Source: Phycisphaerales bacterium (lineage in GTDB: Bacteria > Planctomycetota > Phycisphaerae > Phycisphaerales > UBA1924). From it: a stretch of DNA of 64,000 nt. Below, one piece after another: positions 10,964 to 33,640 of this stretch. Each line of letters begins with the position of its first letter. Position 1 is the stretch's first letter. The stretch covers positions 186,001-250,000 of the forward strand of contig JAJDDK010000002.1 of NCBI GenBank assembly GCA_029260345.1, read 5' to 3'. The notes beneath the pieces were generated by a model. The model was not told where the DNA came from. It worked only from the letters and a program-made list of their open reading frames with translations, and searched no databases. A program made the position numbers and the translations under genes.

Positions 10964-10984
10964 CAAGAGCGTGGAGCGCTCTTG
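10964..10984 (+). promoter_or_regulatory. Hairpin with TGGAG loop upstream of fliF (possible CsrA site)
   Basis: CAAGAGCG (10964-10971) pairs perfectly with CGCTCTTG (10977-10984), leaving the pentaloop TGGAG. GGA in a hairpin loop is the core of CsrA/RsmA recognition. The site ends 44 bases before the fliF ATG. The same loop recurs in front of flhF. Confidence 0.4.
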
Positions 10985-11028
10985 GTTCCGGTGAGATTCG
11001 GACGAACCCAGGCACGGAGGCCGCAATT

Positions 11029-12696
11029 ATGGACCAGCTACGGCAGGTCCTCAACACGATTCAGGCGCAGATGACGCGCCTCACGTCGAGCCAGAAGCTG
11101 TTGATGGCTTCGCTCGCGGTCGTGATGGTGATGACATTATTTCTGGTGAGTCAATACGCCGGTGATCGACAGTTTGTTGAATTGCTTCCCGGAACCTCTG
11201 GTGATGAGCAGCAGCGAGCGCTCGACCTCCTTCGCGTGAATCAGATCACGCATGAGGTGAAGGAAGGGAAAATCTTCGTCCCGGCGGAGAATCAGCACTT
11301 TGCGCTGGCGCAACTCTCGCAGGGCGGCGCGTTGCCCCCCGATGCAAGTCTCCTCTTCTCGAACATCACTGAGAAACAGTCCTGGGCGATGTCCGCCGAC
11401 CAGCGCCGACAGATGGAGCGATTTGCGCTTCAGAACGAGATTGCGCTGACCATCAGCGAGTTCGACGGCGTACGCAGCGCCAAAGTTCTGATTGATGTTC
11501 CCGAGCCGCAGGGCCTCGGCGCCGCGACGCGACGTCCGACAGCGTCCGCGACGGTCTTTTCTTCCAACGGGCAGCCGCTCACGCAGCGCACGGTCGATGC
11601 GGTCGCCGCGCTTGTCGCGGGCGCCAAGGCTGGTCTTGCGATTGAGGATGTCCGCGTTATCGATGGTGTGCAAAACGCACAGCGTCGCCCGACCGGCGAC
11701 GACCAGGCCGTTGCTTCCACAAACTTCGATCAAACGTTGAAGGTTGAAAAATCAGTCCGCGACAAGCTGCTCAATATGCTGAGGTATATCGACGGCGTCA
11801 TTGTCGCGGTGAACGCCCAGGTCGATACGCGTCGGGTCAGCACAGACACGCGACGTGTCCTTCCCAACGGCGCCGGCAGTCAGACGTTTGCCTTGAGCGA
11901 ATCCACGAGTGAAGAGACGCAAGCGGCCGCGGCGCGCGGCGCCGAACCGGGCGCCCGGTCCAACACCGGCCTCGACATCAATCGCGGCGGCGCGACTGGT
12001 TCACAGTTCACCAAGACCGACAATCAGGCGACGCTCCGTCCCGAAGTCGGCTACGAGCAGCAGCGCATCATCGATCCGCGCGGCGTCATCACGAAACTGA
12101 ATGCCACCATCAATGTCCCTCGGTCGTACTTTGTCGCTCGGTACCGTGACCTCAACGGCCCCGATGGCGAACCCACGGACGCGGATCTACGGCCGATTAT
12201 TGAACAAGAGACCGAACGCATTCGCATGGGCGTCGAACCGATCGTCGATACGCCGGATGTTGAAGGCGGTCCCGGCGCTGTCGTCGTTTCAATGATCCCC
12301 GACTGGGCGCCCGCGACCGGGGAAGCACAAACCGCAGGCATCGGTGCGCTCGGAATGGGCGGCGGCACGTTTGCGATGACCGGTCTGGTGAAGACGATTG
12401 CCCTGGGCGGGCTCGCGATGCTCTCGCTTGGATTGATGGCGCGAACGCTGAAGCGCGCCAGCAAGCCCGCGGAACTGCCGACAGCTGAAGAACTCGTTGG
12501 CGTGCCGACCGTCACTCAAAGTTCGCCAGATCTCGTTGGTGAGGCGGGCGAAGCGGACGCGGCGCTGGCCGGCATTGAACTGAGCGTCGAAGAAATTGAT
12601 CGCCGCAAGATGCTGGAACAGGTCGGTGAACTCATCGAAGCGAAGCCCGATGTCGCGGCGTCGCTGCTCGGCAAATGGATCGAAGCGTCAGACTGA
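11029..12696 (+). CDS. fliF: Flagellar MS-ring protein FliF
   Basis: A 555-residue inner-membrane protein of normal FliF length. One membrane helix lies near residues 24-45 (LLMASLAVVMVMTLFLVSQY) and a second near 447-467 (TGLVKTIALGGLAMLSLGLM). Between them are the ring-building motifs, including the conserved KVLIDVPEP strand. The C-terminal tail (EQVGELIEAKPDVAASLLGKWI) is the FliG-binding segment. FliF multimerises into the MS ring that houses the export gate. The fliG gene follows at once, as usual. Translation may be affected by the hairpins in its leader. Confidence 0.96.
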   Translation: MDQLRQVLNTIQAQMTRLTSSQKLLMASLAVVMVMTLFLVSQYAGDRQFVELLPGTSGDEQQRALDLLRVNQITHEVKEGKIFVPAENQHFALAQLSQGGALPPDASLLFSNITEKQSWAMSADQRRQMERFALQNEIALTISEFDGVRSAKVLIDVPEPQGLGAATRRPTASATVFSSNGQPLTQRTVDAVAALVAGAKAGLAIEDVRVIDGVQNAQRRPTGDDQAVASTNFDQTLKVEKSVRDKLLNMLRYIDGVIVAVNAQVDTRRVSTDTRRVLPNGAGSQTFALSESTSEETQAAAARGAEPGARSNTGLDINRGGATGSQFTKTDNQATLRPEVGYEQQRIIDPRGVITKLNATINVPRSYFVARYRDLNGPDGEPTDADLRPIIEQETERIRMGVEPIVDTPDVEGGPGAVVVSMIPDWAPATGEAQTAGIGALGMGGGTFAMTGLVKTIALGGLAMLSLGLMARTLKRASKPAELPTAEELVGVPTVTQSSPDLVGEAGEADAALAGIELSVEEIDRRKMLEQVGELIEAKPDVAASLLGKWIEASD

Positions 12697-12711
12697 GTGA
12701 GAGCGAGGACC

Positions 12712-13743
12712 ATGCGTCGCGACAAGCTTCCGCCAAGCATTGATGAGCTCTCCGGCGTCACCAAGGCAGCCATACTCGTGCTGTCGCTGGAGACGGATCC
12801 GGCGTCTGCCATGCTCAAGATGTTGGCGCCCGAATCACTTGAAGATGTGACGCGCGAACTTGCCGGCTTGGGTGATGTGCCGCCGGAGCTACGAGCTGCA
12901 GTGATCGAGGAGTTCTACACCGTTTCGCTGGCGCATCAATTCTCAAATGAAGGCGGACTTGGATACGCCAAAACCCTCCTTTCAAAGTCGCTTGATCCCA
13001 AGACGGCGGAAAAGATTCTCAGCAAGATTTCTACGCAGGTGCAGAAGACGCCTTTCTCGTTTTTGCAAAAGGCGGAAAGCGAGAACCTGCTGCAATTTAT
13101 TCAGGACGAGCATCCGCAGACTATCGCGCTCATCTTGTGCCATCTGCCACACTTCAAAGCGGCGGAAACGCTCTCCGGTTTCCCGCTGCAGAAGCAGATC
13201 GAAGTCATCAAGCGCATCGCGTACATGGAGCAGACGAACCCAGAGGTCATTCGCGAAGTTGAGCGCGGGCTCGAATCGCGCTTGTCGTCGATGCTCATGC
13301 AATCTTCTGAGAAGGCGGGCGGCATTCCAACCGTCGCCGAGATCCTCAACCTGGCGGATCGCTCCACTGAAAAGTCCATCATGGAAGTGCTCGAAGGCGA
13401 AGACCCGGACGTCGTCGAGCAGATCCGCCGCCTGATGTTCGTGTTCGAAGACATTCTTCTTGTCAACGACAAGGGCATTCAGGCTGTGCTCAAGGAAGTG
13501 GACAACGACGAAATTGCCTTGGCGCTCAAGACCGCGTCCGAAGAACTCAAAGAGAAGATCTTCTCCAACATGTCCGAGCGCGCGGCGCAGCTCATCAAGG
13601 AAGAAATGGAATACATGGGCCCCGTGCGCATCAGCGACGTGGAGGCATGCCAGCAGCGCATCGTCGACATCGTCCGTCGCCTCGAAGAAGCGGGCGAAAT
13701 CATCATCTCCGGTCGCGGCGCCGAAAGCGAAATGATCGTCTGA
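12712..13743 (+). CDS. fliG: Flagellar motor switch protein FliG
   Basis: ATG 12712 follows GAGCGAGG and is preferred over a GTG that abuts the fliF stop. The 343-residue product has the N-terminal FliF-binding domain (LSGVTKAAILVLSLE), the middle domain with the EHPQT motif near residue 132 and LPHFKAAETLSGFP, and the C-terminal torque helix with the charged residues of LALKTASEELKEKIFSNMSE. FliG links the MS ring to the C ring and contacts MotA. In a canonical C ring it binds FliM, but fliM is not in this locus. Confidence 0.96.
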   Translation: MRRDKLPPSIDELSGVTKAAILVLSLETDPASAMLKMLAPESLEDVTRELAGLGDVPPELRAAVIEEFYTVSLAHQFSNEGGLGYAKTLLSKSLDPKTAEKILSKISTQVQKTPFSFLQKAESENLLQFIQDEHPQTIALILCHLPHFKAAETLSGFPLQKQIEVIKRIAYMEQTNPEVIREVERGLESRLSSMLMQSSEKAGGIPTVAEILNLADRSTEKSIMEVLEGEDPDVVEQIRRLMFVFEDILLVNDKGIQAVLKEVDNDEIALALKTASEELKEKIFSNMSERAAQLIKEEMEYMGPVRISDVEACQQRIVDIVRRLEEAGEIIISGRGAESEMIV

Positions 13744-13780
13744 CTCCTTTGCAATCTCTCGTTTGGTGCAGCGACGCGTC

Positions 13781-14524
13781 ATGGCTCTGATCAAGAACGC
13801 ACATTCCGGTTCGATGGCCCGCGAGGCGGTGGTGCTTGATCTTGGCGATCTTGCCGCACAAGCCGCAGCGATCATCGAGCGCGCCGAACGCGAAGCGGCT
13901 CAGGTGCGCGACGAGGCCCGAGCCGAACGCGAGCGACTCATTGCCGATGCGCATGAGATTGGGTTCAAGCAGGGGATTGAAGCAGGGCAGGAGCAGGGAC
14001 GCCGCGCAGGCTATGAGGAAGGAAAGATCGAAGCGCTGAATGCGATGCAGAATCAGCTCACGGAACTGGATGCGCGATGGAGCATGGCGGTCGAGGAGTT
14101 TGAATCGCGTCGGCAGCGACTGATCATTGAAAGCCGCACGGATGTGTTGCGTCTTGCGGTGGGCATTGCGGAGCGCATCACGCGCCGCCGCGTCGCCATT
14201 GATGCAACGGCGGTAGAAGCGCAGATCGAAGCCGCGCTGCAATATGTGCTTGAGCCCACGCGATTGGTTGTGCGCGTCCATCAAGAGGATGTGGAAGCGG
14301 CGACGCTGGCCCTGCCGCGGCTCCTCGCACGACTGTCCGCTTCGCCACACATTGACGTGCGCCCCGATGATTCGCTGACGCGCGGCGACTGCATCGTGGA
14401 AACGCGCGGCGGCGAGATCGATGCGCGCATAGAAACGCAACTCGAACGCATTGTGACTTCACTCCTTCCGCAGCGGCCAAACGAGGCGCCGATAGATCCT
14501 CCGGCGAAGGAGCCGTCCGAGTGA
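13781..14524 (+). CDS. fliH: Flagellar export ATPase regulator FliH
   Basis: ATG 13781 is chosen; an ATG at 13763 would add six residues. The product has 247 residues with a long charged coiled coil in the first half, including GFKQGIEAGQEQGRRAGYEE, the glycine-spaced GxxxG-type repeat that marks FliH, and a globular C-terminal half like the V-ATPase E subunit. FliH holds the FliI ATPase and delivers it to the export gate. The stop overlaps the fliI GTG by four bases. Confidence 0.88.
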   Translation: MALIKNAHSGSMAREAVVLDLGDLAAQAAAIIERAEREAAQVRDEARAERERLIADAHEIGFKQGIEAGQEQGRRAGYEEGKIEALNAMQNQLTELDARWSMAVEEFESRRQRLIIESRTDVLRLAVGIAERITRRRVAIDATAVEAQIEAALQYVLEPTRLVVRVHQEDVEAATLALPRLLARLSASPHIDVRPDDSLTRGDCIVETRGGEIDARIETQLERIVTSLLPQRPNEAPIDPPAKEPSE

Positions 14525-15873
14525 CTGCCCTGCAAAGCGAAATTGAACAGCTTCGCGCGCTGGAGCCGCTCCGCGTGGTTGGCTCCGTTGCCGCAGTGCG
14601 CGGCCTTGTCGTGCTCGTGGAGGACTTTCCGATTCCAGTCGGATCACTTGTCTCGATTCACTCGGGCGAAACGATGCGGCGCGGTGAGGTCGTCGGATTC
14701 GAACAACAGCGCGCTGTCATCATGCTCTATGGTCAAACAACGGGCGTGCGACCGGGCGATCGTGTGGTGGGTGAGCATTGCGCCCCGACGGTCGCGATCG
14801 GTGAAGAGTGCCTCGGTCGTGTCATCAACGCCCTTGGCACGCCCATCGACGGCGGGTCACCCCCGATGGGAGGAACGCCGATGCCGCTGGACCCTGATCC
14901 AGCCGGCGCGATGTCGCGCGAACGAATCAAGACGCCACTCGCGACGGGTGTACGCGCGATTGATGGACTGCTCACGGTCGGGCACGGTCAGCGCATTGGT
15001 GTGTTCGCAGGCCCAGGCCTTGGAAAATCCACACTGCTTGGCGCCATCGCAAGAAACACAGGCGCAGACGTCAATGTGATCGCGATGATCGGCGAGCGCG
15101 GCCGCGAAGTGCGCGACTTTATCGAATCCGTACTCGGCGAAGAAGGGTTGAAGCGATCGATCGTCGTAGTAGCGACCAGTGATGAATCGCCGCTGATGCG
15201 CATTCGCGCCATGCTCGTCGCCTGTGCGTGCGCGGAGTATTTCCGCGATCGCGGCGCCGACGTCATGCTGATGATGGATTCGATCACACGATTCGCGCAA
15301 GCGCAGCGGCAGGTCGGGCTGGCCGTGGGTGAGCCGCCCGCCACGAAGGGATTCACGCCGAGCGTGTTCGCCATGCTGCCGCGCATTCTGGAACGGGCTG
15401 GTTCACTTCGCGATCGCGGCTCCATCACTGGGTTCTACGCGGTCTTGGTGGAAGGCGAGGAAATCACTGATCCGATCGCGGACGCCGTGCGTGGTGTGCT
15501 CGACGGGCATATTTCACTGTCGCGGGAGCTGGCGCAGCGCGGGCATTATCCGGCCGTCGATGTGTTGCGATCAGTCAGCCGTGTGGCGGATGATGTCAGC
15601 GACGCCATGCTGAATGCCGCCCGAAAGCGGGCCGTCAAATTGATGGCAGACTATGAAGACGTCGCCGACCTTGTGCAAATCGGCGCCTACGCGCGCGGCT
15701 CAAACTCCGCAAGCGATCTGGCCATTGAGATGAAGCCGCACATTGATGCCTACCTTCAGCAAGGATCGCGCGAGCGCACGACTTTTGATATGGCCAAAGA
15801 AGGGCTGTTTGAACTTGTGAATCGTGCCGGCAGTCTTGAGCAGTCGCTACAGAATCAAAAGGCGCCGCGATGA
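14521..15873 (+). CDS. fliI: Flagellum-specific export ATPase FliI
   Basis: Starts at GTG 14521 inside the fliH stop. The 450-residue product is an F1-beta-like ATPase: P-loop AGPGLGKST near residue 162, the GERGREVRDFIE motif, Walker B MLMMDSITRFAQAQR near 248, and GSITGFYAVLVEGEEITDPI. It energises early export by loading chaperone-substrate complexes at the FlhA/FlhB gate. Length and motifs are those of FliI rather than of the F1 beta subunit or Rho. Confidence 0.95.
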   Translation: MTALQSEIEQLRALEPLRVVGSVAAVRGLVVLVEDFPIPVGSLVSIHSGETMRRGEVVGFEQQRAVIMLYGQTTGVRPGDRVVGEHCAPTVAIGEECLGRVINALGTPIDGGSPPMGGTPMPLDPDPAGAMSRERIKTPLATGVRAIDGLLTVGHGQRIGVFAGPGLGKSTLLGAIARNTGADVNVIAMIGERGREVRDFIESVLGEEGLKRSIVVVATSDESPLMRIRAMLVACACAEYFRDRGADVMLMMDSITRFAQAQRQVGLAVGEPPATKGFTPSVFAMLPRILERAGSLRDRGSITGFYAVLVEGEEITDPIADAVRGVLDGHISLSRELAQRGHYPAVDVLRSVSRVADDVSDAMLNAARKRAVKLMADYEDVADLVQIGAYARGSNSASDLAIEMKPHIDAYLQQGSRERTTFDMAKEGLFELVNRAGSLEQSLQNQKAPR

Positions 15874-15893
15874 CGGCGATGCAGGTCTAGCCC

Positions 15894-16373
15894 GTGGCCG
15901 CGCGATTGGACCAACTTCGGGTCGTGCTGGAGCAGCGCGAGCGTGTTGAACAGGAGAAGCAGCGCGCCGTCGCAGAGCTCACGCGAAGCGCGAACGCCAT
16001 CGAGGAACGCATGCGCCGATCGCACGCCTCTCTGATGACCATTCGCAGTGAACTGCGCACCGTGCTCGCGCCGCAATCCGGCGCAGCGGTCGCCATGTCG
16101 GATATCCGGTTGCAGGCTGGCGCCACATTGCACGGCCAGGTGCAGCTCCAGGCCATGGCGATTGAATTAGCTGGTGTGCAGTCTCGCCTCCGCGCGGCTC
16201 GCGAATCACTCATGGAAGCGACCGCCTCACGAAAAGCGGTTCAGCTCCTGCGAGATCGCCGAGTGCAGGAAGCGAGATGTGCGGCGGAGCGACGAGAGTC
16301 CGTCGAGCTTGACGAAATCTCGACCGTGCGGCACGGCCGCGCCGATGCCTCGTTGCAGGAGACGCAATCATGA
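15894..16373 (+). CDS. fliJ: FliJ-like flagellar export coiled-coil protein
   Basis: GTG 15894 starts a 159-residue protein that is nearly all charged coiled coil (LDQLRVVLEQRERVEQEKQR) with a short break in the middle. FliJ, the stalk-like subunit of the export ATPase, is a short coiled coil encoded just after fliI, and this gene holds that place. The sequence itself is too low in information to be decisive, so the call depends on position and shape. Its stop overlaps the next ATG by four bases. Confidence 0.7.
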   Translation: MAARLDQLRVVLEQRERVEQEKQRAVAELTRSANAIEERMRRSHASLMTIRSELRTVLAPQSGAAVAMSDIRLQAGATLHGQVQLQAMAIELAGVQSRLRAARESLMEATASRKAVQLLRDRRVQEARCAAERRESVELDEISTVRHGRADASLQETQS

Positions 16374-17053
16374 TTCGCTCAATCTGGACTGTGGTGACAA
16401 CGCTGGCGCTGGCTAATCTGCTGGTCATCCTTGGCTTGACGCTTTGGCTGGGAATCAGTGGGCGCCTGACAACCGATCGATTTGAGCGCGTGCGCGAAAT
16501 GCTCAAGGAGACGGCGCTCGAGGAACTGGATCGTCTCGAGATTGAAGCGGAAGAACTCGCCGCGGCTGAGCTTGCGGAACTCGAAGCGAAAAAGGCAATG
16601 TTGCCGCCGATTTCGTCGGAAGATCGCCTGGCGTTGCAATCTCAGCACGATGCTGTGATGCAGCAGAGTCTGGAGCGCACTCGGCGCACGCTGGACGACA
16701 TGCGCCGAACGCTCGAACTTGAGCGCACCGAACTGGATCGAAGCATTGCCGAGTTTCGAGCCGAAAAGGAAGCCTTCGAGCAAATGCGCGAGCGAATTGC
16801 TCAAATCGAGGGCGATGCCCAATTCGGCAAGGCGCTGACGCTCTACCAGTCGCTTCAGCCCAAAGACGCCGCGAACACCCTGAAAGAGTTATACGACCGA
16901 GGCGATGTCGAGCAGGTCGTCGCGTACCTCAATTCGATGGAATCGCGGAAGGCGTCCAAGGTCGTGGCTCAATTCGAGCCGGCAGTGGCAGCGGATTTGC
17001 TTGAACGTCTCAGGACGCGCGGCTTGGTCGCCGCCGTTCCTGAGGGACGTTAA
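16370..17053 (+). CDS. MotE-like membrane-anchored coiled-coil protein with MgtE-N-type domain
   Basis: The 227-residue product has one N-terminal membrane helix (TLALANLLVILGLTLWLGI), a coiled coil over about residues 40-140, and a C-terminal domain reading YQSLQPKDAANTLKELYD, then VVAYLNSMESRKASKVVAQF. The last part matches the MgtE intracellular N-domain pattern found in MotE-type proteins, which help stator or FliG-related assembly in several bacteria. It lies between fliJ and fliK, the usual place of this gene in Firmicute-like flagellar operons, and abuts fliK. Confidence 0.75.
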   Translation: MIRSIWTVVTTLALANLLVILGLTLWLGISGRLTTDRFERVREMLKETALEELDRLEIEAEELAAAELAELEAKKAMLPPISSEDRLALQSQHDAVMQQSLERTRRTLDDMRRTLELERTELDRSIAEFRAEKEAFEQMRERIAQIEGDAQFGKALTLYQSLQPKDAANTLKELYDRGDVEQVVAYLNSMESRKASKVVAQFEPAVAADLLERLRTRGLVAAVPEGR

Positions 17054-18433
17054 ATGATCTCTGCCGGATTCGGACTCCTCCAACCTGAAGCATTCGCCGC
17101 CCGAGTCGGCCGCGCTGTGCCATCAGCGGCGGCGCCGGACGCGAAAGAGTCATTTCAATCCACTCTGCAACGTCAGTCAGATTCGGATGCGCCGGCGCTC
17201 GAAGCGCCAGCAGGGGTAGAAGATGCGCCCCGCGATGCGCAAGAATCGGCAGAAGCCGCGCAAGAGTCATCTGACGATCGCGATCTTGCGGACGCAAGCG
17301 AAGCTGATGAAGAATTGAAGTCTTCAGATTCTGCCGTAGCGGATGAAGAGGCTGAAACAACGGAAGACATCGAGACCGCAGCGGCCGAAGTTTCTTTTGC
17401 CCCGGCTTTGGCTGGCGCTGCATCGGCAGCCGTCACAGACACTTCGAATAGTGTGAAACCGACCGCCGGCGCCGAATCCGGAACGCAGGGGACTCCGAAT
17501 TCCGAGACCGCCGCACGATTGGCCGCGGAGTTGGAACAGCCAGAACATGCGGCAAGGTCGAGCAAGACGTCGCAGAACGCGCCGGCTCCTTCGGGCGCCG
17601 ATCGCATTGCAAATTCCGCAGCCGCCGCGCAGGCGGAAAACATCAATCCAACAGAAACATCCGCGCCGGATGAGAATATTGCCGCCACCGCCTCGGCAGC
17701 AGTCGACAAGAAATCGACCACACCGGATGCGGCGCGAGAAGGCGTCGAATCGGCGCGACCACTCCAGGATGGCGTCGAAACGAATTCATCGCATCGCATA
17801 AATCCTGTGGAATCAACGTCTTCATCGCCGGACGCAGCGCTTCGCAGCACAGACGGTCGCCAATTCATTGATTCACTCAACCGCGCCGGTACGCAGGCGT
17901 CGCCCGGACAGCCATCCGCGGAGTCGAGTGGCGAGAATCGCGTCTTCGAAGCGCAGGTCACGCGCGGCCTGGAAGCGGCGCTGCGCCAGAACGGTGGATC
18001 GGTGACAATTCGGCTCAAGCCCGAAACGCTTGGCGCGATGAAAATCGACCTTCAAATCGCGCAAGGCTCGGTTGCCGCACAACTCGAGGCCACCACAGCC
18101 GAGGCACGCGATTTGCTGACAAAGCATCTTGCAACGCTGCGCACCGCGCTGGAATCAAAGGGTTTCAACGTTCGCAGCATTGAGATTCAGGCGCCCGCCT
18201 CACAAAGTGGCGGCGAGGCACAATCCGAGTTTGGTCGCTCGTTCTCCGGTCAGTCCAATGCGCATTCTCATGATGCGCAGGCCGGATCAGACGGGCACGC
18301 GTCAGGCCGCCGGGAGGATTCGGGCGGCGCCCAATGGAACAATCAGTCCATCGATGCGCTCGCGGAGGACGAGTTGATCGAACCGGGCTGGCGGCCGGTG
18401 TATGTCAACGGTTCATTGAACGCCGTTGCGTAA
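17054..18433 (+). CDS. fliK: Flagellar hook-length control protein FliK
   Basis: ATG 17054 follows the previous stop directly. The first 300 of 459 residues are Ala-, Ser-, Glu- and Asp-rich and disordered, as in other FliK rulers. The C-terminal Flg_hook domain reads GGSVTIRLKPETLGAMKIDL, then VAAQLEATTAEARDLLTKHL and LRTALESKGFNVRSIEI. FliK is exported, measures the hook and switches FlhB to late substrates. Placement before flgD and flgE, the hook cap and hook, fits. Confidence 0.9.
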   Translation: MISAGFGLLQPEAFAARVGRAVPSAAAPDAKESFQSTLQRQSDSDAPALEAPAGVEDAPRDAQESAEAAQESSDDRDLADASEADEELKSSDSAVADEEAETTEDIETAAAEVSFAPALAGAASAAVTDTSNSVKPTAGAESGTQGTPNSETAARLAAELEQPEHAARSSKTSQNAPAPSGADRIANSAAAAQAENINPTETSAPDENIAATASAAVDKKSTTPDAAREGVESARPLQDGVETNSSHRINPVESTSSSPDAALRSTDGRQFIDSLNRAGTQASPGQPSAESSGENRVFEAQVTRGLEAALRQNGGSVTIRLKPETLGAMKIDLQIAQGSVAAQLEATTAEARDLLTKHLATLRTALESKGFNVRSIEIQAPASQSGGEAQSEFGRSFSGQSNAHSHDAQAGSDGHASGRREDSGGAQWNNQSIDALAEDELIEPGWRPVYVNGSLNAVA

Positions 18434-18479
18434 CACCAGTCGTCCGCGCACCACCGGTCTTTGCTCGGAAAGCCGCGCT

Positions 18480-18935
18480 ATGTCTGCGATCACATCGAAT
18501 CCAGGCGCCACGCCGCCTAGCTCCACGAATGCATTCAACTCAATCACGAGCGAAGACTTCATTCGCATCATGTTCAGCGAGTTGACGAACCAGGATCCGC
18601 TGGCGCCGAACGACACCAAAGCGGTTCTCGATCAGATCAGTTCGATTCGATCGATTGAATCCGACCTCAAGCTTTCCGACAAGCTTGAGTCGCTGGTGTC
18701 CCAGAATGAACTTGCCTCCGCCGGAACGCTGATCGGAAAGTTCGTCACCGGGCTCAATGGTGAAGGACAACGTGTTGGCGATCTTGTGCTCTCGGTGAGC
18801 AGCACACGCGATGGCGCTGTGCTGAATCTTGCCAATGGCGCCCGCCTTGAGATGAGCCGTGTTGAAGAAATCATCGACACCGGTTTGCTTGAAGCACTCT
18901 CGAACAGTGCGGCGCCGGCCGCAGCCACTCCCTGA
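18480..18935 (+). CDS. flgD: Flagellar hook-capping protein FlgD (short form)
   Basis: ATG 18480 gives 151 residues, much shorter than enteric FlgD. The conserved N-terminal hook-cap region is present: ITSEDFIRIMFSELTNQDPL, then DQISSIRSIESDLKL, and SASTLIGKF-like ASAGTLIGKFVTGL. The Ig-like insert of longer homologues is missing, and the last 60 residues keep only a small beta domain (GDLVLSVSSTRDGAVLNL). FlgD caps the growing hook so that FlgE can polymerise. It lies between fliK and flgE. Confidence 0.88.
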   Translation: MSAITSNPGATPPSSTNAFNSITSEDFIRIMFSELTNQDPLAPNDTKAVLDQISSIRSIESDLKLSDKLESLVSQNELASAGTLIGKFVTGLNGEGQRVGDLVLSVSSTRDGAVLNLANGARLEMSRVEEIIDTGLLEALSNSAAPAAATP

Positions 18936-18959
18936 TCACGTGCGAGAAAGGTTGCGACC

Positions 18960-19517: not shown

Positions 19518-19529
19518 GCAGATCATTCA

Positions 19530-19543
19530 CGGGCTCTTGCCCG
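19530..19543 (+). repeat. Short stem-loop before flgE
   Basis: CGGGC (19530-19534) and GCCCG (19539-19543) enclose a TCTT loop, followed by the T-containing stretch GTCTTGTTG. It may weakly attenuate read-through into flgE or protect the flgE transcript. It ends 30 bases before the ATG. Confidence 0.35.
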
Positions 19544-24616: not shown

Positions 24617-24661
24617 GATGGGTGAGGACGGCGCGAGGATCGCGTCAGAGTTTGAAACGAT

Positions 24662-24693
24662 CGCCGCAGGATGCGGCGGCAAGCCAGGATGGC
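24662..24693 (+). promoter_or_regulatory. Tandem GGA-loop hairpins just before fliO (possible CsrA sites)
   Basis: CGCCGC (24662-24667) pairs with GCGGCG (24673-24678) around AGGAT, and GCCA (24683-24686) pairs with TGGC (24690-24693) around GGA. Both stems are perfect and the second ends 5 bases before the preferred fliO ATG at 24699. Paired GGA-loop hairpins beside a start codon are the usual form of a CsrA-repressed leader. Confidence 0.4.
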
Positions 24694-24698: not shown

Positions 24699-25523
24699 AT
24701 GGGCAGGAGGCCCGCAGACAATTTGTGCCGCTGGCTCGTTTTGCAATGCCGGTGCGCACGTTCGGCTTTGGCCATTTCTATTTTGCTTCTTGCGACCACT
24801 GACTCCGCATTCGCGGCGGATTCAGCCTCTCCAAATCAAAACGAGATCGGCCCGCACATTCTCGTCGAAGCCGCACCCTCGGAATCTGAAACTTTGGATG
24901 GCGCTTTGCCGCCGATTGAGCGACTTCCCATCGGGCCTCCGCCTCGTGGCGTTGATGGCTCCAGCGATGCCGCAGCCGGCTCGGCGGGGCCGTCATCGAC
25001 GCGCACTATCATGGCGCTTGGCGTTGTCATCGCTTTGATCTTCGTAACGCGATGGGTCATGCGCAAAGCCGCGACGCGTGTGGGCGGAATGTCCTCGCAG
25101 CTTGGGCCGGGCGGTCGGGCGCCATCCGGAGTCTTGACCGTGTTGGCGCGTTACCCGGTTGGTCGCGGCCAATCACTCGTCATGTTGCAGATGGATCAGC
25201 GCATTTTGCTGCTGAACCAAACAGGACAGGGATTTCAGACGCTCGCGGAAATCACGGACCCTGAAGAGGTCGCATCGCTGCTGATCAAGACGCGCGATGA
25301 GGAAAATGACTCACTCTCAACGCGATTCACCGGTCTTCTGAAGCGTTTTGAACGTGATCCGGAGATCGTCGATCGCAACGAATGGCCGAGCCGCAACCCA
25401 ACGACGGTGGACGCGGCGCTGCGGCTTTTCCCGAATCAAGCCGCAACCCGGGCAACATCGAACACTGATCCGCTGGCCGCCATACGCGAGCGCGTCGCCG
25501 AACTCGAAGGAACGCTGGCATGA
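24699..25523 (+). CDS. fliO: Flagellar biosynthesis protein FliO
   Basis: Start ATG 24699 gives a natural signal-like N-terminus (ALAISILLLATTDSAFA); the frame is open to ATG 24618 as well. After about 65 exported residues comes one membrane helix, TIMALGVVIALIFVTRWVM, and then the cytoplasmic FliO core with LTVLARYPVGRGQSLVMLQM and RILLLNQTGQGFQTL. The C-terminal 100 residues are an extension. FliO helps assemble the FliP-FliR export gate and lies next to fliP with a four-base overlap. Confidence 0.85.
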   Translation: MGRRPADNLCRWLVLQCRCARSALAISILLLATTDSAFAADSASPNQNEIGPHILVEAAPSESETLDGALPPIERLPIGPPPRGVDGSSDAAAGSAGPSSTRTIMALGVVIALIFVTRWVMRKAATRVGGMSSQLGPGGRAPSGVLTVLARYPVGRGQSLVMLQMDQRILLLNQTGQGFQTLAEITDPEEVASLLIKTRDEENDSLSTRFTGLLKRFERDPEIVDRNEWPSRNPTTVDAALRLFPNQAATRATSNTDPLAAIRERVAELEGTLA

Positions 25524-26419: not shown

Positions 26420-26436
26420 CAGGGAGGCGCCGGGCG

Positions 26437-26694
26437 ATGTACGCAGATGAAACACTCCTGGATATGGTGCGGCAAGCGCTGTGGCTCGCCGTCGTTGTTT
26501 CCGCGCCAATTCTTGGCGCTGGCGTGCTCGTCGGGCTTCTCATCAGCATTTTTCAGTCCGTCACCAGCATTCAGGAACAGACGCTGACGTTTGTGCCAAA
26601 GATTCTCGTCATGATTGGCGTGTCCATCGCTCTTATGGCGTGGATCGTTGATCGGCTTGTCGCCTTCACCAGCCAGATGATGACCTTTGTGTGA
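26437..26694 (+). CDS. fliQ: Flagellar export gate protein FliQ
   Basis: An 85-residue protein with two membrane helices, ALWLAVVVSAPILGAGVLVG and FVPKILVMIGVSIALMAWIV, with the conserved SIFQSVTSIQEQTLTF loop between them. Size and motif are those of FliQ. Four copies join FliP and FliR in the export gate. It starts 18 bases after fliP and ends 7 bases before fliR. Confidence 0.96.
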   Translation: MYADETLLDMVRQALWLAVVVSAPILGAGVLVGLLISIFQSVTSIQEQTLTFVPKILVMIGVSIALMAWIVDRLVAFTSQMMTFV

Positions 26695-26700
26695 GGCGCG

Positions 26701-27477
26701 ATGACGATCGTTGATTTCATCCTGCCGCATGTCACGTCATTCTCGCTGGTATTGGCGCGGATCGGCGGCATTTTTCTGTTTGCGCCGGCGCTCGGCAGCC
26801 CGATCATTCCGGCGCGCATTAAAGGATTAATCGTTGTTGCACTGACGTTTGTGGTCTACCCGAGTGTTGCGGCGACACCAATTGCCGGCCCGGTCGATCT
26901 CATTTCGCTGGCGCCTATGATGCTCGGCGAAACGCTCATCGGTTTATCGATCGGACTTATCGTCGCGATCCCGGTGATGAGTGTGCAGATGGGTGGTCTG
27001 CTCATTGGCCAGCAGATGGGACTTGGGCTCGGCACCGTCTACAACCCCGCGATTGACGCGGATGGCGATGTGATCGGACAGGTCCTCTTCTACCTCGCGC
27101 TTGCAATTTTTATGGCGATCGGCGGCCTTGAATTGATTCATATCGCCGTGATGCGCACGTTTGAGCATGTGCCACTGGGCGCGTTTACGACCGGGCAGGC
27201 GCCGCTGGAATTGCTCACCGGAGTGGTCGCCTCCGGATATGCGCTTGCGATTCGTGTCGCGGCGCCGGTGCTGTGCATCATCATGCTCGAAACGATTTCA
27301 ACCGGCGTCTTGATGAAGACTGTGCCGCAACTCAATGTGCTGACGTTTGGTTTTCCAATCAAGATTATCGCGGCGTCAACGATGTTGATCGCGGCGTTGC
27401 CGTTCATCGACCAAGCCGTGCGAGGCGAAACGATCGCCGTGATTGACAGTGTCTTTCTCTGGATCAGGGGTCTGTGA
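26701..27477 (+). CDS. fliR: Flagellar export gate protein FliR
   Basis: A 258-residue membrane protein with about six hydrophobic helices. It shows the FliR patterns LARIGGIFLFAPALGSPIIP, GLLIGQQMGLGLGTVYNPA and LNVLTFGFPIKI. FliR contributes one copy to the FliP-Q-R gate. The next gene, flhB, starts four bases after the stop, and the two proteins act at the same gate. Confidence 0.95.
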   Translation: MTIVDFILPHVTSFSLVLARIGGIFLFAPALGSPIIPARIKGLIVVALTFVVYPSVAATPIAGPVDLISLAPMMLGETLIGLSIGLIVAIPVMSVQMGGLLIGQQMGLGLGTVYNPAIDADGDVIGQVLFYLALAIFMAIGGLELIHIAVMRTFEHVPLGAFTTGQAPLELLTGVVASGYALAIRVAAPVLCIIMLETISTGVLMKTVPQLNVLTFGFPIKIIAASTMLIAALPFIDQAVRGETIAVIDSVFLWIRGL

Positions 27478-27480
27478 TTC

Positions 27481-28554
27481 GTGGCCGAAGACCTGGGCGA
27501 AAAAACCGAGGATCCGACGCAGCGAAAGCTGACGGAAGCGCGCGAGCGTGGACAGGTGGCGCGGAGCGCCGACCTTTCCGCGGCGATTGTGCTGACCGGC
27601 GCCGCGCTGCTGTTGTATGTCTTTGGCAGTGACATCCTGGGCGGCATGGGCACGTTCATGCGCAACACGCTTGAGCCGGAGTCGCTCGGGCGAGGCATAC
27701 ATCTGCAGACAGTTGAGGACTCGGTTCGATTCGCCGTGCAGGTTGGCATGAGACTGCTCGGTCCGGTGCTGGCGATCATGGCGATCATTGCGTGGCTCGA
27801 TCAACTCGGACAGGTCGGCTGGAACTTCACCACAAAGCCTCTGACGCCGAAATTTGATCGCATGAGCCCCGCCAAGGGGATCAAGAACATCTTCTCACGG
27901 CGCAGTTTGGTGAAGGCCATCATCAACATCGTGAAGCTCACCGTGATTGCGACGGTCGCGTTTCTGGTGATTCACGGCGCTGAGGATCGGATCGTGGCAT
28001 TGCCGGCGCTGACGCCTGCGGGCGCGATGCTGATCACTGCGCAATTGGTCGTGGAGCTTGGGCTCTGGATCATTGCGGTGCTCCTTTTGATTGGGGCGAT
28101 TGATCGCACGTACCAATCGTGGCAACACAATCATGACCTTCGCATGACGAAGCAGGAGGTCAAGGATGAACGAAAGAGCACGGAAGGCGATCCGGAAACC
28201 AAGGCCCGCCGCATGCGCATAGCGCGTGAAATCACGCGGCAGCGTTTGCGGGCCGCCGTGCCGAAGGCAGACGTTGTCGTCACCAATCCCACGCACTATT
28301 CCGTGGCGATTCAGTACGACGCCGATCGCATGAACGCGCCGGTCGTCGTCGCCAAGGGTGCGGACTTCATGGCGATTCAGATTCGACTGATCGCTTCGGC
28401 GAACAATGTTCCCATCGTGGAGCGCAAGCCGCTGGCTCGTGCACTGTATCGCTCGGTTGAAGTGGGGCAGGAGGTTCCGGCGGATCTGTACGAAGCCGTC
28501 GCGGAACTGCTGGCCTATGTCTATCGCCTCGAAGGGCGCCTCGCGGCGTCGTAA
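27481..28554 (+). CDS. flhB: Flagellar export switch protein FlhB
   Basis: Starts at GTG 27481. The N-terminus EKTEDPTQRKLTEARERGQV is the family hallmark. Four membrane helices follow, then the cytoplasmic domain with the autocleavage motif NPTH near residue 270 (ADVVVTNPTHYSVAIQY). Cleavage between Asn and Pro switches export from rod/hook to filament substrates in concert with FliK. The length of 357 is normal and the motif intact, so the switch should work. Confidence 0.97.
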   Translation: MAEDLGEKTEDPTQRKLTEARERGQVARSADLSAAIVLTGAALLLYVFGSDILGGMGTFMRNTLEPESLGRGIHLQTVEDSVRFAVQVGMRLLGPVLAIMAIIAWLDQLGQVGWNFTTKPLTPKFDRMSPAKGIKNIFSRRSLVKAIINIVKLTVIATVAFLVIHGAEDRIVALPALTPAGAMLITAQLVVELGLWIIAVLLLIGAIDRTYQSWQHNHDLRMTKQEVKDERKSTEGDPETKARRMRIAREITRQRLRAAVPKADVVVTNPTHYSVAIQYDADRMNAPVVVAKGADFMAIQIRLIASANNVPIVERKPLARALYRSVEVGQEVPADLYEAVAELLAYVYRLEGRLAAS

Positions 28555-28572
28555 GAAAGGAATCACTGATTC

Positions 28573-30771
28573 GTGCCGAAGGGCGCTCCGACGAAGACCG
28601 TGCCGCACTGGGCCTTGATGCTGGCGAAGCATCGCGGGCTCATGGTGCCGCTCGGATTCATCGGGCTGCTCGTGGTCATTGTGATTCCGCTTCCGCCGGT
28701 GTTGATGGATGTGTTCATCTCCTTCAACATCTGCATCGCGGTGGTGATGTTGCTGACCACGGTCTATGCGAAGGATCCGCTTGAATTCAGTGTGTTTCCG
28801 TCGCTGCTGCTCTTTACGACGCTGATACGGCTGGTGCTGAATATCGCATCGACGCGCTTGATTTTGTCCGCTAAAGCGAGCAGCCCGGCCGAGGCTGAGG
28901 ACGTGGCAGGAAAAGTGATCGGCGCGTTCGGGACGTTCGTCGCCGGTGATTCGCTGGTGGTCGGCGGCATCATCTTTCTCATTTTGATCATTGTGCAGTT
29001 TGTGGTGATTACCAAGGGCGCCACGCGCATTAGTGAAGTCGCAGCGCGATTCACACTCGACGCCATGCCCGGTAAGCAGATGGCGATTGACGCTGATCTC
29101 AACGCCGGTCTGATCGATGAACAACAGGCGCGTTCGCGCCGCCAGGCGATTCAGGAAGAGGCTGACTTTTATGGAGCGATGGACGGCGCCAGCAAGTTTG
29201 TGCGTGGCGACGCCATTGCGGGCATCATCATCACGGTCGTCAATATCATTGGTGGGTTCACCGTCGGCGCTCTGGAAAAAGGCTGGTCGATGGGCGAGAC
29301 GGCGTCGCTCTTTACACGCCTGACGATTGGTGACGGTCTGGTCTCTCAGATTCCCGCGTTCGTGATTTCGATCGCCGCGGGCTTGCTCGTCACGCGAGCG
29401 GGATCAAAATCGAGTCTCGGCGAAGACTTGGCGAATCAGCTCACGAGTCAGCCGGTGGCGCTTGGAATCGCGGCTGGATTTATGGCGCTCCTCGCGACCA
29501 CGCCACTGCCGACGACGCCGATGCTGCTCGCGGCGGGCGTTCTGGGTGTCACTGCATTGATGATGCGTCGTCAAGCAAAGGTCACCACCGAACAAAGCGA
29601 TGCGAAGAATCGCAGCGATGCGGCGGCAGCGCCGATGGAGCCGCCGGCCGTCGAGAAGCTGATGAAAGTCGATGCGCTGGAACTCGAGGTGGGGTATGGC
29701 CTCGTTCCATTAGTTGACGCGGGGCAGGGGGGCGACCTTCTTGATCGCATCGCAGCGGTGAGAAGGCAGTTGGCCGTTGAGCTCGGTCTCGTCATGCCGC
29801 CGGTGCGCATTCGCGACAACATGACGCTGGACCCGAACGTTTACAACGTGAAGATCCGCGGGAGTCTGGTGGCGCAGGGCCTCGCGTATCCGGATCGGCT
29901 GCTGGCGATGGATTCCGGCATTGCGACAGGTCGCATTGAAGGCACGCCGACGAAGGAGCCGGCGTTTGGGCTGGATGCATGGTGGATCGATCGTTCGCTG
30001 AAACAGCGTGCAGAAGGATTCAACTACACCGTGGTTGATCCATCCAGCGTCATCACGACGCATCTGACCGAACTCGTCCGGACCCACGCCAGCGAACTGC
30101 TGACGCGTGAAGAGGTCAACAACCTGATCGAACAGTTGAAGGAGAAGTCGCCGAAGCTTGTGGAAGAAGCGATTCCCGCCGTGGTCAAGCCGGGTGATCT
30201 TCAGAAGATTCTCCAGAACCTGCTTCGCGAAGGCGTGCCGGTGCGCGATCTGGAGACCATCATCGAAACACTCACGGACTGGGCGCCGAAGACGAAGGAT
30301 CTCGACGTGCTGACAGAGTATGTCCGGCACGGTCTGCGGCGATCCATTTGCCAGATGTACGCGACTCCCGTGACGGATCGGTCGGATGGCGGCGGTTTTG
30401 GCGCTCCGCTTCCCACGCCCGGCGATGCGCGGCTCAAATTGGTCTGTGTCACGCTCGATCCGGGCTTTGAGGATGTGGTCAATGGGTACATCGACCGGTC
30501 GTCGGCGGGCACGTCGCTCACCGTGCCGGCTCATATCGCCAACGCGATGGCTCGCCGCATTCTGGAAGCGATCCAGCCGGTGTTGACGGCTGGACACCAG
30601 CCGGTGGTCATCGCGTCGCCTCAAGTGCGCGCCGCCGTGCGACAGATTCTTGAGCCTCACTTGCCGAATGCGGCGGTGCTCGGGTACAACGAAATAGTTG
30701 CGGGCGTCGAAGTCGAGTCCCTGGGGCTCGTCACGAAGGGCGAAGAGCGCCAGCCCGTGACCGCGGCGTAG
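28573..30771 (+). CDS. flhA: Flagellar export protein FlhA
   Basis: Starts at GTG 28573, 18 bases after flhB. The 732-residue product has an N-terminal membrane half with eight helices and the FHIPEP signature (RFTLDAMPGKQMAIDADL) near residues 157-175. The C-terminal cytoplasmic half, from about residue 370 (ALELEVGYGLVPLVD), docks chaperones and the ATPase. It ends with EPHLPNAAVLGYNEI, the standard FlhA tail. FlhA forms the nonameric ring under the export gate. Confidence 0.97.
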   Translation: MPKGAPTKTVPHWALMLAKHRGLMVPLGFIGLLVVIVIPLPPVLMDVFISFNICIAVVMLLTTVYAKDPLEFSVFPSLLLFTTLIRLVLNIASTRLILSAKASSPAEAEDVAGKVIGAFGTFVAGDSLVVGGIIFLILIIVQFVVITKGATRISEVAARFTLDAMPGKQMAIDADLNAGLIDEQQARSRRQAIQEEADFYGAMDGASKFVRGDAIAGIIITVVNIIGGFTVGALEKGWSMGETASLFTRLTIGDGLVSQIPAFVISIAAGLLVTRAGSKSSLGEDLANQLTSQPVALGIAAGFMALLATTPLPTTPMLLAAGVLGVTALMMRRQAKVTTEQSDAKNRSDAAAAPMEPPAVEKLMKVDALELEVGYGLVPLVDAGQGGDLLDRIAAVRRQLAVELGLVMPPVRIRDNMTLDPNVYNVKIRGSLVAQGLAYPDRLLAMDSGIATGRIEGTPTKEPAFGLDAWWIDRSLKQRAEGFNYTVVDPSSVITTHLTELVRTHASELLTREEVNNLIEQLKEKSPKLVEEAIPAVVKPGDLQKILQNLLREGVPVRDLETIIETLTDWAPKTKDLDVLTEYVRHGLRRSICQMYATPVTDRSDGGGFGAPLPTPGDARLKLVCVTLDPGFEDVVNGYIDRSSAGTSLTVPAHIANAMARRILEAIQPVLTAGHQPVVIASPQVRAAVRQILEPHLPNAAVLGYNEIVAGVEVESLGLVTKGEERQPVTAA

Positions 30772-30826
30772 GATGCGCCGTGATGGGAGGCCGACCACGA
30801 AGGTCAGCCGCGGACAATGCGATCGA

Positions 30827-30843
30827 ACCGGCTGGAGGCCGGT
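30827..30843 (+). promoter_or_regulatory. Hairpin with TGGAG loop upstream of flhF (possible CsrA site)
   Basis: ACCGGC (30827-30832) pairs perfectly with GCCGGT (30838-30843), leaving TGGAG in the loop. It sits 25 bases before the preferred flhF GTG, whose ribosome binding site (GGAGGG at 30859-30864) supplies a second GGA. The same loop is found upstream of fliF. Confidence 0.35.
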
Positions 30844-30868
30844 GAACCAACGCGCCATGGAGGGCAGC

Positions 30869-32149
30869 GTGAACCTGCGGACGTATCACGCACCATCGAT
30901 CGCCGATGCGCTCGGCCAGATCAAACGCGATCTGGGGTCGAGCGCTGTCATTCTCCATACACGCACTTATAAGCGCGGCGGCTTCCTCGGCTTTGGCGGT
31001 CGCACCGCGGTCGAAGTCACAGCGTCCAGCAATGTAAATGTTGTTAACCCGCTCGTGCGCAAAGGCAAGGCGCCAGTTGAGACCTTGCGCCCGCGCGAAG
31101 AAAGTTTGCGCCGTGCATATGGCGCGGCGCCGCTGAAGCAGGTGGAGTCGCCCGCCGAAGCTCCGCCACGACCGGCCACCGATGAGTATCACCCCGCAGC
31201 GCGCGAAGTCGCAAGCGCCGTCGTCGCGGCGGCCACGGTGGAATCACCGGACGCCAATCTCATGCGTGATGAACTGGCGTCCATCAAACGACTGGTCGGC
31301 CAGGTGCTTCGCACAAATGGCGGCAAGTCGGGGCCGGCGCTGCCGGAATCACTCACCGCGATGTATCTCAGGCTGATTGAATCTGAAGTTGCGGCTGAAA
31401 TCGCGGACGCCGTCGTCGCCGAAGTGCGGGATGAACTGACGGCGCGCGATCTCGACAATGCGGACCGTGTGCGAGAATGTGTGCTGCGGCGACTTGAACA
31501 GTACGTCGCCGTCAGCGAATGCGTCCCCGATCCGGGACAGATGCCGGATGGCCGCCCCTTGACGATTGCGCTTGTGGGTCCGACGGGTGTAGGTAAAACG
31601 ACCACGATCGCCAAACTCGCCGCGACCTACAAACTGCGGCACGGCAAGCGCGTCGGACTGGTCACGTGCGACACGTACCGCATTGCCGCGGTCGAGCAGT
31701 TGCGCACGTATGCCAACATCATCGGGCTTCGATTGAATGTTGCGCTGACTCCGCCGGAGATGGGCGCGTGCTGTTCCTCACTCAGTGATTGTGACGTCAT
31801 TCTGATTGATACGGCGGGACGGTCTCAGCATGACGGCGATCGACTCACTGATCTTGGCGCGTTGCTTGACGCGGCGAAGCCGCACGAAACACATCTGGTG
31901 CTGTCAGGCGCGGCGAGCGAGTCCGTGCTGTTGCGCGCCGCCGAGCGATTCGAAGTCGCCAAACCAAACCGCGTGATCCTGACCAAACTCGATGAGACCG
32001 TGAGTTTCGGTGTGCTCGTCAACGTGGCGCACCGCATCGGTAAATCGCTGAGCTACATCACGACCGGCCAGGAAGTGCCGGATCACATTGAGCCGGGCCG
32101 GGCGGATCGATTGGCGCAGCTTGTCCTTGATGGAAGTGGTGTACGGTGA
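30869..32149 (+). CDS. flhF: Flagellar placement GTPase FlhF
   Basis: GTG 30869 is chosen because GGAGGG precedes it and the protein then starts MNLRTYHAPSIADALGQIKR, the typical FlhF start; the frame is open to ATG 30773. The SRP-type GTPase domain shows LVGPTGVGKTTTIAKLA, VTCDTYRIAAVEQLRTYA, ILIDTAGRSQHD and LTKLDE. A variable basic region links it to the N-terminus. FlhF sets the site and number of flagella, usually at a pole. Its stop overlaps flhG by four bases. Confidence 0.94.
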   Translation: MNLRTYHAPSIADALGQIKRDLGSSAVILHTRTYKRGGFLGFGGRTAVEVTASSNVNVVNPLVRKGKAPVETLRPREESLRRAYGAAPLKQVESPAEAPPRPATDEYHPAAREVASAVVAAATVESPDANLMRDELASIKRLVGQVLRTNGGKSGPALPESLTAMYLRLIESEVAAEIADAVVAEVRDELTARDLDNADRVRECVLRRLEQYVAVSECVPDPGQMPDGRPLTIALVGPTGVGKTTTIAKLAATYKLRHGKRVGLVTCDTYRIAAVEQLRTYANIIGLRLNVALTPPEMGACCSSLSDCDVILIDTAGRSQHDGDRLTDLGALLDAAKPHETHLVLSGAASESVLLRAAERFEVAKPNRVILTKLDETVSFGVLVNVAHRIGKSLSYITTGQEVPDHIEPGRADRLAQLVLDGSGVR

Positions 32150-33165
32150 GCGTGCGCGCGGACCAATCCGTGAACCCTCGTGACGATCAGGCGACACGCC
32201 TTCGCGAACTTGTGGCGCGGCTGGATCATGTGCGGGATGCGGGTGAATCGTCCGTCCGAAGTGCGCCGCGCGCGCGGCACAATCGTGCCGGCAAAGATTC
32301 CTCACCGAAGCCGCACGCCAGAGTCATCGCGATCGCATCCGGCAAAGGCGGCGTCGGCAAGACCAGTCTTTCGGTCAACCTTTCTGCGGCGCTGGCCCAA
32401 GTCGGATCGCGCGTGGTGCTGCTGGATGGAGATTTTGGCCTGGCCAATGCTGACCTCCTGTGCGGCGTTCGTGTGACCTCGCACCTCGGGCACGTCATTG
32501 AGGGGAAGCGAACGCTCGAAGAAACCCTTGTGCCGACAGCGGCCGGCTTCCGTCTGGCGCCGGGCGCTTCGGGTTTGGCCACACTACTCAACGCGCCGGT
32601 TGAGCAGCGGCGTCGACTCGTCGAACAACTCGCCGTGCTAGATCAAGCCTGTGACGTTGTTGTGATAGATTGCGGCGCCGGGATGAATGACGGCGTCCTT
32701 GCTTTTTTGCGATCCGCAGATCTTGCGCTTGTGGTGACAACACCGGAGCCAACCGCCATCGCCGATGCGTACGCACTCATCAAGACCATGCTGCGCACCC
32801 CCAACGAATGGGGGAGTGACGATGCGCCACCACGACTGATTGTGAACATGTGCAATGATGAGCGCGATGCACTTCGCGCGCATGCGCGAATCAGTTCTGT
32901 GGCGGAGCGATTCCTGGGAGTTGGAATTCCCATGGCGGGATGGGCGCCGCGTGATCCGCTTGTCTGTGATGCGGTCCGGGCCCGATCCATGTTTGTGCAG
33001 CGCACGCCTCACGCAAATGCTTCGCGCGCGGTGGTCCGCCTCGCGCGTGAGCTGGACCGAGAATTCAGTCTGCACGCCGCAATGGCTACACCGTCGCGCG
33101 GCTTCTGGCGCCGATTGTTCGGGTTGCCGGGGTTAAATCGTCGAGAAATAGCTGGGGCGGACTGA
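32146..33165 (+). CDS. flhG: MinD-like flagellar number regulator FlhG
   Basis: Starts at GTG 32146 within the flhF stop. A 339-residue P-loop ATPase of the MinD/ParA group with the deviant Walker A motif ASGKGGVGKTSLSVNLSA, LDGDFGLANADLLCGV and VVIDCGAGMNDGVLAFL. The N-terminal 60 residues are charged and may contact FlhF, whose GTPase it stimulates. The flhF-flhG pair limits flagellar number. MinD itself is excluded by the context and the N-terminal tail. Confidence 0.93.
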   Translation: MSVRADQSVNPRDDQATRLRELVARLDHVRDAGESSVRSAPRARHNRAGKDSSPKPHARVIAIASGKGGVGKTSLSVNLSAALAQVGSRVVLLDGDFGLANADLLCGVRVTSHLGHVIEGKRTLEETLVPTAAGFRLAPGASGLATLLNAPVEQRRRLVEQLAVLDQACDVVVIDCGAGMNDGVLAFLRSADLALVVTTPEPTAIADAYALIKTMLRTPNEWGSDDAPPRLIVNMCNDERDALRAHARISSVAERFLGVGIPMAGWAPRDPLVCDAVRARSMFVQRTPHANASRAVVRLARELDREFSLHAAMATPSRGFWRRLFGLPGLNRREIAGAD

Positions 33166-33242
33166 AGTAACGCCTGATTCGGGTCGAAACCGACAACGAG
33201 CGCATGCGCCGCAGCGTTGTTCGATCCCCTGGAGACCGTCAC

Positions 33243-33557
33243 GTGACCGAGACATCATCTGCGAAAGTCGTCGCTGGATGCCTTGGATTGGCGGCTTTTG
33301 CGATTGCGCTCATTGCAGGTCTTGGATCCGGCGCCGAAGCTGACGTTGTGCTTGGCCGAGCCGTCATCAGCATGTTTGTTTGCTTTTTGGTCGGGTATGC
33401 AGTCGGCCTTGCCGGTGAGCGCGCGATTGATGAAGCCGCGCAGCGTTTCCGCAACGAACACCCAATCGAAGAACTCCCGTCGGACAACGACGCGGAGCAC
33501 GAACACTATCACGTGACTGATTCTGAACGCGGCGCCGTCATGGAGACGGCGTCATGA
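33243..33557 (+). CDS. Small two-helix membrane protein between flhG and the fliA-type gene
   Basis: GTG 33243 with GGAG 8 bases upstream gives 104 residues; an ATG at 33204 is possible. Two membrane helices are clear (VVAGCLGLAAFAIALIAGL and AVISMFVCFLVGYAVGLAG). The remaining 45 residues are hydrophilic and acidic with a histidine cluster (HEHYH). I do not recognise a named family. It is wedged in the flagellar operon after flhG, so a motor or assembly role is possible. Confidence 0.6.
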   Translation: MTETSSAKVVAGCLGLAAFAIALIAGLGSGAEADVVLGRAVISMFVCFLVGYAVGLAGERAIDEAAQRFRNEHPIEELPSDNDAEHEHYHVTDSERGAVMETAS

Positions 33558-33580
33558 AGCGCACGCCAAAAAGAAAAAAC

Positions 33581-33608
33581 TTGGCGAAGCGCGCGCGATC
33601 TGTATACT
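33581..33608 (+). promoter_or_regulatory. Sigma-70-type promoter for the fliA-like gene
   Basis: TTGGCG (33581-33586) and TATACT (33603-33608) are 16 bases apart, in an A-rich context just after the preceding stop. The expected transcript would have a leader of about 100 bases, including the GGA-loop hairpin at 33627. The sigma factor can therefore be made apart from the main flagellar transcript. Confidence 0.6.
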
Positions 33609-33626
33609 GCTTGCCATAACCCGGCT

Positions 33627-33640
33627 GCCCAAGGATGGGC
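33627..33640 (+). promoter_or_regulatory. GGA-loop hairpin in the fliA-like leader (strong CsrA-like motif)
   Basis: GCCCA (33627-33631) pairs perfectly with TGGGC (33636-33640) around AGGA. The run CAAGGATG equals the core of the known CsrA/RsmA consensus CARGGATG. A second GGA lies in the ribosome binding site (AAGGAGAGG just before ATG 33716), giving the usual two-site layout. Confidence 0.5.

Follow-up and report, generated by a model that had tools for sequence, protein, structure and literature searches.

GGA-loop hairpins as predicted CsrA-family translational operators on early flagellar genes of a Phycisphaerales-type planctomycete

Background

Control of flagellar genes by CsrA has been described in Campylobacter jejuni and Bacillus subtilis. 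The flaA leader of C. jejuni is bound by CsrA and contains two stem-loops with ANGGA, the second of which lies on the ribosome-binding site; several other flagellar mRNAs of this species (flgI, flaG and flaB) also have GGA-containing leaders (PMC4894983). In the CsrA-FliW-Hag switch of B. subtilis the described target is hag, the site lying on the Shine-Dalgarno sequence of the flagellin mRNA (PMC6529632, PMC7652899). The glgC leader of Escherichia coli pairs an upstream hairpin anchor with a Shine-Dalgarno site, although it has four sites and a different function, and E. coli uses the CsrB/C RNAs rather than FliW (PMC7652899). CsrA SELEX ligands have the consensus RUACARGGAUGU and mostly four or fewer base pairs, and both a model in which CsrA bridges an anchor and the Shine-Dalgarno sequence and the antagonism of CsrA by FliW have been set out (PMC7652899). 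A search of the literature found no study of CsrA in planctomycetes.

The planctomycete leaders considered here resemble flaA in having two GGA stem-loops, the second on the ribosome-binding site, with compensatory changes, and the genome resembles those of C. jejuni and B. subtilis in encoding both CsrA and FliW, with GGA sites on several flagellar leaders and on the flagellin Shine-Dalgarno sequence. The anchor-plus-Shine-Dalgarno arrangement is that of glgC. Unlike in C. jejuni, the elements are found on the early genes fliF, fliO, flhF and fliA, together with smc, in a different phylum and with CsrA binding predicted; the genomes here also usually have two csrA genes, and this one three. 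More mRNAs carry sites than the one described in B. subtilis. The mechanism is already known; judging from the papers searched, its targets and the phylum are new. If correct, this would carry into another phylum the FliW-CsrA flagellar circuit known from Bacillus and Campylobacter, with operators on genes for early assembly steps (MS ring, export gate, polar placement and sigma factor) and on smc.

Results and discussion

GGA hairpins in the flagellar leaders

The window, the whole 64,000-nucleotide stretch of DNA that was analysed, is part of contig C2 in a genome of 3.4 Mb. The closest named relatives in a comparison of FlhA are Phycisphaerales and other Planctomycetota metagenome-assembled genomes, and the host is a Phycisphaerales-type planctomycete. 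Matches to protein families identify a long flagellar operon including fliF, fliG, fliN, fliO, fliP, flhB, flhA, flhF, a MinD-like ATPase and a FliA/WhiG sigma factor. The starts of fliF, fliO, flhF and fliA were inferred from protein families, homology and Shine-Dalgarno sequences, those of fliO and flhF being revised (Table 1). As these starts fall downstream of the GGA hairpins, the latter sit in leaders rather than in coding sequence; the long open reading frames that begin upstream of the fliO and flhF hairpins are artefacts, ruled out by homology.

All five perfect GGA-loop stems listed in an earlier note, at fliF, fliO (two), flhF and fliA, are present in the sequence. Further stems had been missed, comprising two at fliO and those enclosing the Shine-Dalgarno GGA of fliF, flhF and fliA, each of which lies within a short stem. 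Each leader thus has at least two sites, one of them on the Shine-Dalgarno sequence, with the stem at the latter reduced to 4 bp in fliA. The three hairpins of the fliO leader fall within 64 nt and all present AGGAT. The loop TGGAG is indeed the same at fliF and flhF, as had been remarked, but this is a coincidence of one genome: relatives mostly have AGGAN at flhF and a mixture of loops at fliF.

Table 1. Flagellar genes, GGA hairpins and promoter-like sites in the window.
Feature	Position	Strand	Evidence
fliF (MS ring), start ATG	11029..12696	+	TIGR00206, E 5.9e-26, below curated cut-off
Putative promoter box TCAAG-N17-CCGA 5' of fliF leader	10920..10945	+	identical spacing in 18/28 fliF leaders searched
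fliF upstream GGA hairpin, 8 bp, loop TGGAG	10964..10984	+	stem covaries
fliF Shine-Dalgarno GGA hairpin GGC-ACGGAG-GCC	11011..11022	+	GGC-A(N)GGAG-GCC at Shine-Dalgarno in most relatives
fliO, start ATG	24699..25523	+	PF04347, E 1.8e-8; start from signal-peptide-like N-terminus and Shine-Dalgarno
fliO GGA hairpin 1, CGCG-AGGAT-CGCG core	24630..24646	+	missed in earlier note
fliO GGA hairpin 2, CGCCGC-AGGAT-GCGGCG	24662..24678	+	compensatory changes
fliO Shine-Dalgarno hairpin GCC-AGGAU-GGC	24683..24693	+	almost invariant in relatives
GGA hairpin over fliO first codons, GGGC-AGGAG-GCCC	24701..24713	+	missed in earlier note; also in L035, otherwise not general
flhF, start GTG	30869..32149	+	TIGR03499, E 3.4e-63; homologues align from this GTG
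flhF upstream GGA hairpin, 6 bp, loop TGGAG	30827..30843	+	independent match to fliO model R1
flhF Shine-Dalgarno hairpin GCC-ATGGAG-GGC	30854..30865	+	leaders read in relatives
fliA-type sigma factor, start ATG	33716..34597	+	TIGR02479, 240.7 bits, above cut-off
Sigma-70-like fliA promoter TTGGCG-N16-TATACT	33581..33608	+	TATACT-like box visible in many relatives too
fliA GGA hairpin GCCC-AAGGAT-GGGC	33627..33640	+	17/36 leaders at score at least 12
fliA Shine-Dalgarno stem GGTC-AAGGAGAG-GACC immediately 5' of ATG	33700..33715	+	4-bp stem

Given the conserved box upstream of fliF, the leader of this gene is probably a 5' untranslated region as well. Leaders with this box in relatives are found among L115-L139. 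The box is not supported as a flagellin-type promoter, since a search upstream of the flagellin genes gave only one stray match. At fliA, the sigma-70-like promoter ends at 33608 and would place the hairpin near the 5' end of the gene's own transcript. Of the several internal points at which the earlier note would have the operon tuned, fliO and flhF do lie inside it; fliA has its own promoter-like site a short way upstream of its hairpin.

Conservation and covariation in relatives

The chance background was estimated from 679 called genes in 864 kb of this genome, a sample that takes in the window. As the earlier note had cautioned, GGA stems arise by chance in such GC-rich DNA, 26 being present on the + strand of the window, and leaders in the sample show only a mild enrichment (15 hairpins at a score of at least 18, against a shuffled mean of 3.5 and maximum of 8). 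Furthermore, GGA is not special in 100 generic leaders (7 against 3.5 shuffled). Single stems therefore prove little, and it is the comparison across relatives that decides. The two-hairpin layout is itself found in 11 of the 679 sampled genes, and the ranked list of such leaders is topped by fliF, flhF, flagellin and smc, with flgI and flgA lower down.

In relatives, by contrast with this mild overall enrichment, the excess is massive. An upstream GGA hairpin scoring at least 14 is present in 25 of 28 fliF leaders (shuffled mean 1.7), 13 of 20 flhF leaders (0.6) and 13 of 36 fliA leaders (1.4), as well as in all 26 selected fliO leaders (1.1), these having been chosen for carrying CCA(N)GGA proximally and a GGA 16-46 nt farther upstream; seven other loci did not qualify. 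The lower frequency at fliA, under half of leaders, may perhaps be due in part to uncertain starts; at the Shine-Dalgarno sequence of this gene, GGTCAAGGAG(N)2GACC recurs in many relatives. GGA is the best of the 64 possible loop triplets in the fliO, fliF, flhF, fliA and smc leaders.

The sequences of the stems vary from species to species, and exchanging their 3' arms between species drops pairing far below that observed: from 22 stems to 9.8 for fliF, from 14 to 3.1 for flhF, from 19 to 7.2 for fliO, and from 21 of 49 GGAs paired to 3.3 for fliA. These anchored tests were used in place of RNAalifold for fliO, as the latter returned no consensus structure or pairs, probably because the alignment mixes two pairing registers. 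In a MAFFT alignment of 20 fliO leaders, seven of the eight pairs of the upstream helix (helix 1), to which these counts are confined, have changed on both sides, with a covariation of 0.303 against 0.143 and none of 500 shuffles reaching the observed value. Compensatory change is accordingly a property of the upstream hairpins; the Shine-Dalgarno hairpins, including those of fliO and flhF, are mostly too invariant in sequence for pairing to be tested in this way, flagellin being the exception. The hairpins anticipated by the earlier note are thus kept in relatives and change in a compensatory manner.

A covariance model built from fliO leaders alone (R1) had the flhF leader as its second match in the window (E 0.017). 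Other matches in the genome, among them one ahead of a TolQ/ExbB-like gene, had E above 0.5, and the model is too unspecific to define a regulon. A scan with Rfam gave three sub-threshold matches, none at these leaders.

csrA, fliW and flagellin

The genome contains three csrA genes, all above the Pfam cut-off, and one fliW; csrA is found in 61 of 61 genomes searched and fliW in 60 of 61. The first copy, csrA1, adjoins fliW, and the flagellin genes are next to this pair. The divergent csrA2 is at C6:794395 and the third copy at C2:167; all three proteins have an arginine at position 6 and the V-H-R segment. The Shine-Dalgarno sequence of flagellin is presented in the hairpin GCAAUC-ACGGAG-GAUUGC, whose stem also occurs in compensated forms such as ACAAUC/GAUUGU and GACAAAC/GUUUGUC, so that fliW, csrA and a GGA site on the flagellin Shine-Dalgarno sequence occur together, as in the known FliW-CsrA-flagellin circuits. 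Both csrA and fliW are retained in four genomes (G048, G050, G054 and G058) that have no flagellin or fliF matches, which may reflect either a role for FliW without a filament or flagellar genes missing from these assemblies.

A model of translational control and its alternatives

The starts of fliF, fliO, flhF and fliA very probably constitute CsrA-family dual-site translational operators relieved by FliW. The upstream hairpin would present its GGA as a high-affinity anchor for CsrA. The second GGA, that of the Shine-Dalgarno sequence itself, usually looped out a few bases 5' of the start codon by a short C-A(N)GGAN-G hairpin, would then be bridged to the first by a CsrA dimer, excluding the ribosome. 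The distance between the two GGAs in fliO leaders, 21-24 nt in 19 of 25, would be compatible with bridging by one dimer. Each start, including fliO and flhF within the operon, could then be repressed separately; because these two are internal, CsrA could tune them apart from the remaining operon genes. Repression would be relieved by partner switching through FliW, whose gene neighbours one csrA and the flagellin genes. By analogy with C. jejuni flaA, we infer the same action here for CsrA binding, bridging, repression and FliW control alike. The possible CsrA regulon on flagellar genes put forward in the earlier note thereby gains support from the presence of csrA and fliW, the enrichment over shuffles and other triplets, and the covarying stems, with binding putative. 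Two features count against the involvement of CsrA: the upstream stems, at 6-9 bp, are longer than those of most SELEX ligands, and the TGGAG loops of fliF and flhF in this genome deviate from the preferred A(N)GGA with C-G closure. A site for CsrA also need not mean a strong effect, since some of the flagellar targets bound in C. jejuni showed no substantial change in level on deletion of csrA (PMC4894983).

That the hairpins are instead general translation elements independent of CsrA, providing ribosome standby or an accessible Shine-Dalgarno sequence, with GGA kept for pairing to the 16S rRNA, is unlikely. Such a role would fit the coincidence of the proximal GGA with the Shine-Dalgarno sequence in every case, and 76 of the 679 sampled genes have some GGA-loop stem at this position, but it leaves unexplained the second GGA hairpin 20-60 nt upstream, the covariation of its stem and the preference for GGA over all other triplets. 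The upstream hairpin is moreover rare in ordinary leaders, scoring at least 14 in 28 of the 431 whose gap is 60 nt or more (6.5%), and is concentrated on flagellar genes and smc. It is more improbable still that a different RNA-binding protein of the flagellar system reads the hairpins: contact with CsrA is predicted here, and the literature searched contained no planctomycete study of it, but CsrA paralogues are universal in the sampled genomes, a fliW-csrA pair lies next to flagellin, and both the loop and its closing pair, C-A(N)GGAN-G, fit the CsrA consensus. Chance palindromes, of the kind expected in a GC-rich genome, or DNA sites for a transcription factor can scarcely be entertained, as pairing is kept despite complete change of the stem sequence, which argues against both. 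Translational operators for CsrA, the preferred reading, have the merit of offering concrete leaders with conserved, covarying structure that are directly testable.

Distribution among families and csrA paralogues

Within the order, whose sampled families are here labelled f1 to f6, the fliO hairpin pair is found in f1, f3, f4 and f5; it was not seen in the one fliO leader from the same class, or in those from elsewhere in the phylum, that could be anchored. The dual layout at fliF is present in f1, f2 and f3, in several f6 genomes and, in weaker form, in f4; f5 leaders have the Shine-Dalgarno site only. Hairpins at flhF are found in f1-f4 and in neither f5 nor f6.

Alone among the sampled families of the order, f5 (G040, G044, G048, G052 and G060) has no divergent csrA2; one of its genomes has a short, odd csrA pair instead. 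Its readable fliF and flhF leaders are without the upstream hairpin, while the fliO pair is kept (L184, L199). This gives a hint, from one lineage, that the absence of csrA2 is tied to the loss of the upstream fliF and flhF hairpins. CsrA2 cannot be the sole cognate of all the hairpins, because f5 retains the fliO pair without csrA2, and f6 has csrA2 and lacks the flhF hairpins. A division of labour, in which the FliW-linked CsrA1 acts on flagellin and fliO, and CsrA2 on the starts of fliF and flhF and perhaps smc, is a tentative and rather doubtful proposal. If true, early steps of flagellar assembly and the organisation of the chromosome would be coupled through translation. Family f5 offers a natural contrast for matching paralogues to targets. 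In the csrA2 leader itself (L003:1390-1500), the Shine-Dalgarno sequence lies in GGAC-AGGAG-GUCC just before the ATG, and autoregulation of csrA2 through this hairpin is possible.

smc and other leaders

The two-hairpin GGA layout also occurs in leaders of smc (L224:5700-5817, on contig C6 of the host genome, and L295-L318 in relatives), for example as AGCCCCA-TGGA-TGGGGCT followed by CGGC-ATGGAG-GCCG. The upstream hairpin is present in 9 of 24 leaders at a score of at least 14, against a shuffled mean of 1.6, and in 17 of 24 at a score of at least 12; the Shine-Dalgarno hairpin is found in 16 of 24. This pattern suggests that the chromosome-organising protein SMC may be under CsrA control.

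Shine-Dalgarno GGA hairpins are additionally observed at flgI (L249:13994-15085; AATCGC-GGAG-GCGATT) and flgA (L249:15805-16869; GAGCC-ACGGAG-GGCTC), the leaders of both of which are bound by CsrA in C. jejuni (PMC4894983). The murE leader, at 41570-41662 of the window, likewise has the two-hairpin GGA layout in this genome.
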